A DNA stretch of 64,000 nt from Bacteroidota bacterium (GTDB lineage: Bacteria; Bacteroidota; Ignavibacteria; Ignavibacteriales; Melioribacteraceae), in NCBI GenBank assembly GCA_021824635.1, contig JAKAKD010000073.1, positions 1 to 64,000 of the forward strand. Reading direction: 5' to 3'. The position numbers and the translations under genes are program-made. Shown in pieces: positions 40,492-40,894 of this stretch (within the stretch, counting starts at the first letter, position 1; every line of letters begins with the position of its first letter). The notes beneath the pieces were generated by a model, which searched no databases, had not been told where the DNA came from, and worked only from the letters and a program-made list of their open reading frames with translations.

Positions 40492-40564
40492 GGGGCTATA
40501 GCTCAGCTGGGAGAGCGCTTGAATGGCATTCAAGAGGTCAGCGGTTCGATCCCGCTTAGCTCCA
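40492..40564 (+). tRNA. tRNA-Ala (anticodon GGC)
   Basis: A 73-nt tRNA with acceptor stem GGGGCTA/TAGCTCC, D-arm AGCTCAGCTGGGAGAGC, anticodon stem CTTGA/TCAAG with loop ATGGCAT (GGC), and T-arm GCGGTTCGATCCCGC. CCA is not encoded. The 3' part is duplicated at 40836-40894 on the other side of a GIY-YIG gene. Confidence 0.97.
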
Positions 40565-40894
40565 CTAAATATATAAATAAACAAAATGAATTTTTCCGTT
40601 TACATAATGCAAAGTAAACATAACGGAAAATATTACATTGGCCAAAGCAACAATCCTTTAAAAAGATTATCACAGCACAATTCTGGTTATTCAATTTCAA
40701 CCAAGACAGGAATCCCCTGGGAATTGGTATTCATTAAAGAATTTCCATCCAGAAGTGATGCGATGATCTATGAGAAGAAATTAAAGTCTTATAAGAGTCA
40801 TGATTATTTAGAGAAAATAATTTATTCAAATCAATAGAGCGTCCCGATGATAATCGGGAAGGTCAGCGGTTCGATCCCGCTTAGCTCCACTAAA
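40518..40894. mobile_element. Candidate mini-element: GIY-YIG gene between tRNA-Ala 3' copies
   Basis: A 35-bp perfect repeat (40535-40569 and 40860-40894) covers the tRNA 3' half plus CTAAA. The homology extends to AGAGCG (40512-40517 and 40836-40841), but in the second copy the 17-nt anticodon arm is replaced by the 18-nt palindromic hairpin TCCCGATGATAATCGGGA (40842-40859). The only gene inside is an 83-codon GIY-YIG nuclease. The arrangement looks like insertion at the anticodon arm with the tRNA rebuilt by the element. Confidence 0.65.
40586..40837 (+). CDS. Single-domain GIY-YIG nuclease
   Basis: An 83-aa protein: VYIMQSKHNGKYYIGQSNNP carries the paired Tyr strands, followed by LKRLSQHNSG with the catalytic Arg, and FPSRSDAMIYEKKLKSYKS with the metal-binding Glu. 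Same size as the UPF0213-type proteins; structurally a minimal homing-endonuclease-like domain. It starts 21 nt after tRNA-Ala and its stop lies in the duplicated tRNA segment. It may be the enzyme that spreads this small unit; that is inferred. Confidence 0.9.
   Translation: MNFSVYIMQSKHNGKYYIGQSNNPLKRLSQHNSGYSISTKTGIPWELVFIKEFPSRSDAMIYEKKLKSYKSHDYLEKIIYSNQ

Follow-up and report, generated by a model that had tools for sequence, protein, structure and literature searches.

In the genome of a Bacteroidota bacterium (Melioribacteraceae), an intact tRNA-Ala gene is followed by a very small GIY-YIG nuclease gene and then by an incomplete second copy of the same tRNA, in which a hairpin stands in place of the anticodon arm. 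What kind of unit is this, and how can it occupy an essential RNA gene without destroying it? The window analysed here is the whole stretch of 64,000 nucleotides at positions 1 to 64,000 of contig JAKAKD010000073.1 (assembly GCA_021824635.1). We consider it probable, at roughly 60%, that the unit represents minimal homing-type GIY-YIG elements, each specific for a tRNA gene and probably selfish, which leave the host with one intact tRNA and one hairpin-tagged remnant. The element family is large and apparently undescribed; no published account of such units was found in the open-licence literature searched, which is not proof of novelty.

The unit beside the tRNA-Ala gene

The unit and its tRNA are composed of the following features, all on the plus strand.

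40492..40565, +, intact tRNA-Ala(GGC), the host gene of the element (ARAGORN; Rfam RF00005, 63.5 bits)
40566..40585, +, short spacer from the tRNA 3' end to the ORF, whose initial TAAA recurs after the second copy (sequence)
40586..40837, +, GIY-YIG nuclease gene, 83 aa (Pfam PF01541, E=8.5e-19)
40836..40890, +, partial tRNA-Ala copy made of tRNA bases 21-26, a hairpin, and bases 44-74 to the exact tRNA 3' end (alignment to tRNA-Ala)
40836-40841, +, AGAGCG part of the copy (identity to tRNA-Ala)
40842..40859, +, perfect-palindrome hairpin TCCCGATGATAATCGGGA, standing in place of the copy's anticodon arm (sequence)
40860..40894, +, 35-bp direct repeat (AGGTCAGCGG...CTAAA) of 40535-40569 (35 identical bases)

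The tRNA-Ala, the 83-codon gene and the second tRNA 3' part lie where the original prediction had placed them, and AGAGCG and the 35 bp are common to both copies with a perfect hairpin between them, as it had described. The ORF stop had been placed within the repeat, and its TAG (40835-40837) does overlap the tRNA-Ala copy by two bases. The second copy had been regarded as a tRNA with one exchanged arm; the hairpin does replace that arm, but the copy also lacks everything before tRNA position 21, that is, the first 20 bases. The 31-bp match to tRNA bases 44-74 had E=3.7e-14 in a search within its own 2.5 kb, and the same anatomy was found in dozens of genomes, so the copy is not a chance similarity. 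Counted from the 3' end of the intact tRNA through the last base of the copy, the unit measures ~325 bp, near the ~340 bp first proposed for a tRNA-linked unit that leaves its tRNA rebuilt, a proposal which the comparisons below support. In array-forming relatives the entire tRNA-ORF spacer is repeated. At the window copy the native 3' flank has been lost, since a separate inverted-repeat element (GAGGCTGTCTCAAAAGT...ACTTTTGAGACAGCTTC, 40895-40992, ~100 bp), present at many locations in the genus, directly abuts the copy end.

The insertion at a tRNA gene and a partial 3' tRNA repeat resembling island attachment sites would suit a degenerate group I intron or the scar of an integrase-type island, and we give this reading hardly any probability. 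Group I introns with GIY-YIG enzymes interrupt the tRNA with an intron core; in the window no intron family of Rfam was matched and ARAGORN predicts an uninterrupted tRNA-Ala, so the intron was rejected, in agreement with the earlier remark that no intron core is visible. Integrase-type islands likewise have the tRNA rebuilt at one end and a partial tRNA repeat at the other. They differ in that the 325-bp unit holds no integrase, the GIY-YIG ORF being its sole gene, that elements located upstream of their tRNA duplicate its 5' part, and that hairpins replace tRNA arms; the island was also rejected, for want of an integrase. About 0.7 kb upstream of the tRNA, the minus strand of the window encodes a 154-aa protein with a DUF123 match (39370-39834; PF01986, E=1.3e-20).

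The encoded protein belongs to the GIY-YIG superfamily according to its PF01541 match and the conserved Tyr, Arg and Glu. The residues invariant across 13 relatives include Y6, Y17, G19, R27, H31 and E63, all of which occur in the window protein. Among solved proteins, those nearest to it in sequence are SLX1, a structure-specific nuclease, and members of UPF0213, and the catalytic domain of I-TevI is weakly matched; for three proteins tested no NCBIfam model was found. Pairs of relatives with estimable dS gave dN/dS of 0.05-0.11, so the proteins are under purifying selection. No carrier is known, since the window protein had no tblastn match at E<=1e-5 in 50,697 phage records and no homologue at E<=1e-5 in a plasmid collection.

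tRNA association, layouts and hairpins of the family

Homologues of the window protein were present in 52 of 57 relatives ranging from the genus to the order, many of them as tandem arrays of fixed period, and a 13-sequence profile had matches in 75 genomes of a phylum-wide sample of 118; many of the genomes are fragmented assemblies, with some repeats masked. The loci were oriented, a tRNA finder was run, and the neighbouring tRNA was aligned with gaps to the flanks. A tRNA gene on the same strand lay within 320 bp of the GIY-YIG gene in 92/109 loci, a proportion that applies to close family members because the loci came from the top of similarity-ranked lists. Adjacency by chance would be expected at roughly 1%, which is our own estimate from ~45 tRNAs in 3.5 Mb and not a simulation. 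In 65 of 109 loci the ORF is flanked on its other side by an incomplete copy of the tRNA in question. The search of related genomes proposed together with the original prediction therefore did recover GIY-YIG genes beside tRNAs, many with hairpin-tagged tRNA fragments. About 20 different tRNA species are used by the family, including those for Ala, Pro, Asp, Asn, Cys, Gly, Ser, Leu, Arg, Val, Met and Glu, and the arrays consist of 2-8 units with constant periods.

Part of the 17 loci outside the tRNA rule could be explained. Contig ends account for four of them (L049, L075, L188, L199); L081, L093, L232 and L217 have tRNA remnants undetected by the tRNA finder; L092 adjoins a tRNA-Asp overlooked by our script; and in L229 and L205 the ORF lies inside RNase P RNA genes. 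At L036, L039, L216 and L221 no RNA gene was seen at the locus. The array at L217 (G108:C34:5800-10800) has eight GIY-YIG units preceded by the isolated 3' half of a gene resembling tRNA-Met, with no intact tRNA nearby. Two further elements were observed in the genome of the window: a tRNA-Glu element with the palindrome in the T loop of the copy (G000:C10:10842-11060; L241, L249) and a tRNA-Cys element with two inserts (G000:C83; L035).

The elements occur in two mirror-image layouts, and the intact tRNA is beside the ORF in every case. Because an intact copy immediately adjoins the unit, the host is not deprived of its tRNA. In the downstream layout the intact tRNA is followed by the ORF and then by a copy of the tRNA 3' part, which reaches the exact tRNA 3' end in 49/51 copies, while the starts are scattered from base 3 to 52. 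In the upstream layout a copy of the tRNA 5' part precedes the ORF and the intact tRNA; these copies start at base 1-3 in 13/14 cases and end at bases 26-52. In the upstream remnants, ~10-15 tRNA bases separate the palindrome from the break, which is located in the anticodon loop for Ser and Arg and in the T arm or loop for Pro, Gly and Ala. One universal break point was rejected, because the break points vary by lineage.

The copies are interrupted in the D, anticodon or T arm, mostly by perfect palindromes. The 84 gaps or inserts counted fell in the T arm (31), the anticodon arm (29), the D arm (19) and the variable region (5), and none was in the acceptor stem. Insertion at the anticodon arm, as first proposed, describes the window but does not hold as a general rule, since in relatives the hairpin sits in any of the three arms depending on the lineage; that the hairpin is a part of the unit is borne out by its regular presence in relatives. 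A stem of at least 6 bp not derived from the tRNA was present in 51/59 scored copies and was individually significant (p<0.05, shuffle test) in 39; the scored set is without the window's own copy. At equivalent places, the lineages carry the palindromes TCCCGA..TCGGGA, TGGCGCC..GGCGCCA, TCCGGC..GCCGGA, TTCCGCC..GGCGGAA or CCTGCC..GGCAGG. The sequence of the palindrome varies between lineages yet the pairing stays perfect, an argument that it is the pairing that is conserved. The class of the window hairpin, TCCCGA..TCGGGA, is shared by Ala, Pro, Asp, Val and Gly elements and by one set of Asn elements. Its pattern occurs at only 3 sites in its own genome, and the insertion by chance of a dispersed palindromic repeat was rejected on this ground. 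The palindrome would be a functional module that probably protects the remnant or is recognised by the nuclease.

Nuclease lineages and the occupancy of tRNA loci

On a nuclease tree of 85 loci, whose forks are weakly resolved as the proteins are short, tRNA identity needed 24 changes compared with 60.2 after shuffling (minimum 55), and the layout needed 8 changes; an earlier tree of 71 proteins gave the same picture. Each enzyme lineage keeps largely to one kind of tRNA. The hairpin class needed 23 changes compared with 33 when freely shuffled (0/300 as low) and with 26.8 when shuffled within tRNA identity (3/300 as low), the classes being assigned automatically and crudely, with a few errors (e.g. 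terminators in L189 and L070) that blur this test. Among tRNA-Asn elements, one nuclease clade carries TCCCGA..TCGGGA and another TCCG[TG]C..G[AC]CGGA; among tRNA-Pro elements, one genus-level clade carries TGGCGC..GCGCCA and others TCCCGA..TCGGGA. The tree tests together with these clade-specific palindromes are good but not final evidence that nuclease, hairpin and tRNA travel together as a set.

The same association is relevant to another function of the hairpin. In Neisseria, Ssn proteins are small GIY-YIG nucleases that cut single strands at a specific site, and their target is repeated and partly palindromic; we know of no association of Ssn nucleases with tRNAs. If the present enzymes were of this type, the palindrome would be the target of a resident gene that modulates the uptake or recombination of single-stranded DNA, and the tRNA copies would be by-products of breaks. 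Such a role is suggested by the tracking of the nuclease clade by the hairpin class beyond tRNA identity, by the retained strength of palindromes whose sequence changes, and by UPF0213 and the structure-specific SLX1 as nearest solved relatives. It would leave unexplained why the palindrome is without exception embedded in a piece of one tRNA and without exception adjoins the intact gene, and why the lineages are isoacceptor-specific; besides, a pattern with three sites in its own genome is no dispersed repeat. We regard this explanation as unlikely.

The homing-type reading was examined further by comparing occupied with empty loci, as had been suggested for tRNA-Ala. G010, a member of the same genus, has an empty orthologue of the window tRNA, 95% identical and at the same chromosomal place: the same sequence is reached 51 bp after the tRNA there and 454 bp after it in the window, with flanks 86-89% identical. 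At the orthologous tRNA, the ORF of G001 is decayed; in G003, a remnant bearing the same hairpin stands upstream of an altered intact tRNA, accompanied by a masked stretch and a 3' copy. The tRNA-Pro loci vary likewise. The locus of tRNA-Pro(CGG) and a YajQ-like gene is conserved in different families. The distance from the tRNA to the start of the next gene is 372-550 bp where the locus is occupied (G052, G054, G009) and 83-102 bp where it is empty (G003, G005, G055); G034 has an array upstream of the same tRNA-Pro. Homing genes are characterised by occupied and empty alleles at orthologous sites and by lineages specific for their target; the former were found for the window and G010 and at the tRNA-Pro loci, and the latter in the 24 vs 60 changes on the tree.

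The differences in occupancy support gain and loss of the element, and this comparison of genomes suggests that the elements are mobile. The flanking direct repeats would offer a route to precise loss of the unit by recombination, and such loss could explain the empty sites without recent gain. Since the direct repeats permit precise loss and the empty locus of G055 retains the apparent first bases of an ORF, gain and loss are not separable in these genomes. It also counts against the homing-type reading that the most closely related pair (the tRNA-Cys elements of G000, the genome of the window, and G001) looks vertical.

This vertical-looking pair, the purifying selection and the constant periods of the arrays would also be expected of an immobile host gene beside tRNAs that has a cellular role, e.g. 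in repair or tRNA-locus maintenance, and spreads only by tandem duplication of tRNA segments. Orthologous tRNA loci are, however, patchily occupied within the genus and the order, about 20 tRNA species are used, one and the same tRNA-Pro locus has upstream and downstream versions depending on the genus, and arrays can lie away from an intact tRNA (L217), which together make an immobile gene rather improbable.

Another possibility was that the intact tRNA is a recoded, cleavage-immune rescue copy brought by a homing cassette, like a natural homing rescue drive. The tRNA-Ala genes agree with this: the T arm is TTCGATCC in the occupied window and G003 but TTCGAACC in most empty members of the genus, and the upstream remnants of G003 and G034 retain the old T arm ATCGG. 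Several tRNA-Ala genes in the order have TTCGATCC and yet carry no element, and the tRNA-Pro genes, T arms included, are intact and identical in occupied (G002, G004, G006, G009) and empty (G000, G001, G003, G005, G007) genomes of the genus. A recoded rescue tRNA was therefore rejected as a general rule, and we hold it very improbable as an explanation of the elements; all that follows from the tRNA-Ala case is that replacement of the intact tRNA is possible. In most members of the genus, the tRNA-Ala gene (empty loci, e.g. L124) has the T arm ATCGG..CCGTT with a T-T mismatch in the T stem, which is unusual for a functional tRNA.

A possible homing mechanism and other structured-RNA genes

According to the homing-type reading, the unit consists of a GIY-YIG gene of ~80 codons and a fragment of the target tRNA in which a strong palindrome replaces or interrupts at least one arm. 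The tRNA promoter probably drives transcription of the element. The nuclease would break the tRNA gene in a hairpin-loop region, and the cassette would be copied in during repair by homologous recombination, for which the tRNA sequences flanking the unit would provide the homology arms. As a result, one tRNA end would persist as the remnant and the intact tRNA would be rebuilt. Tandem arrays may come from repeated events or unequal exchange, and exchange between direct repeats would delete a unit precisely. A simple cutter of the intact tRNA gene would cut its own locus, because the occupied and empty tRNA-Pro genes are identical; an added condition such as single-stranded DNA or timing is needed. 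Action on single-stranded or folded DNA, as with the Ssn family, is our leading guess for why the intact tRNA escapes recutting.

Known systems share parts of this picture. SegB of phages T4/T6, a free-standing GIY-YIG homing endonuclease in a phage tRNA cluster, promotes the inheritance of the tRNA region (PMC2988022, PMC13096335) and drives tandem amplification of tRNA segments via homologous recombination (PMC13096335). From the sections of these papers used here, SegB resembles the present elements in a GIY-YIG gene among tRNAs and in the amplification of tRNA segments, but it is phage-borne and targets a tRNA intergenic region, and no hairpin-tagged partial tRNA copy is reported in those sections. 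SegB is a close functional precedent, while homology in sequence was not found, as the window protein had no phage match. In Glomus mitochondria, mobile ORFs inserted in essential genes are associated with hybrid genes; as far as the relevant part of that report goes, they differ in being organellar and in using the protein genes atp6, atp9, cox2 and nad3, so that they are not tRNA-specific, and no palindrome-tagged tRNA remnant is described there (PMC3630166). REP/RAYT and IS200/IS605 systems have in common with our elements a compact gene with flanking palindromes and non-autonomous palindromic derivatives. Their transposase is of the HUH type (HUH/Y1), whereas GIY-YIG is the only protein here, and they are not tied to a tRNA isoacceptor.

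If the homing-type reading is true, tRNA genes throughout the phylum carry one of the smallest families of protein-coding elements (~300 bp), and its enzyme lineages, each largely on one tRNA isoacceptor, would be a source of specific nucleases of very small size whose targets are predicted. The family would also account for many of the small 'GIY-YIG' annotations and incomplete tRNA copies, and would make it possible to test how an essential RNA gene with several arms can be exploited by an element and yet survive.

Hairpin-tagged fragments were also found as arrays without an ORF. In the genome of the window, four tandem 101-bp units lie upstream of an intact tRNA-Gly (L035, G000:C83; array partly masked), each unit containing tRNA-Gly bases 1-29, a palindrome, bases 41-56 and a short spacer. 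At L236 (G054:C34, 749-1258), four tRNA-Ala(CGC) units of 109 bp are directly upstream of the intact tRNA. Tagged fragments can thus exist without an adjacent gene, both genomes carrying the gene elsewhere. Hairpins and tRNA fragments occurring independently of the gene had been named in advance as an observation that would refute the unit; they weaken strict autonomy and leave the element family standing, and the 'autonomous' character of the unit is unproven.

Related ORFs are also present at other RNA genes. At L229 996-1645 (G120:C1:1049800-1052100) and L205 (G109:C16), in two species of one genus, the RNase P RNA gene contains the ORF, which separates the two strands of a 21-bp P3-region helix; this helix differs between the two species. 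In L229, the perfect helix strands AGCACATAACGTTCATTGTTC / GAACAATGAACGTTATGTGCT flank 257 bases holding the ORF and are followed by the conserved GGGAGGAAAGTCCGGAC; the upstream GGAAAGCC matches GGCTTTCC at the 3' end of the RNase P RNA. In two members of the genus, a related ORF is located ~130 bp downstream of tmRNA, at G000:C18:6871-7098 (L244, L250) and G010:C157:41431-41658 (L251). From the RNase P RNA and tmRNA cases, the family may use structured-RNA genes in general.

Tentatively, and with a lower probability than the tRNA-specific reading, the elements could be minimal mobile elements on structured-RNA genes (tRNA, and probably RNase P RNA and tmRNA), in which the GIY-YIG protein would recognise a DNA hairpin, be it the palindrome of the element or an arm native to the RNA gene, and break the neighbouring loop. 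The palindrome-tagged remnant would then serve as tag and homology arm, and the ORF-less arrays would be non-autonomous derivatives.

A GIY-YIG subgroup away from RNA genes was observed in the genome of the window (G000:C92, L036; also C36, C71 and C89), often beside dispersed palindromic repeats.
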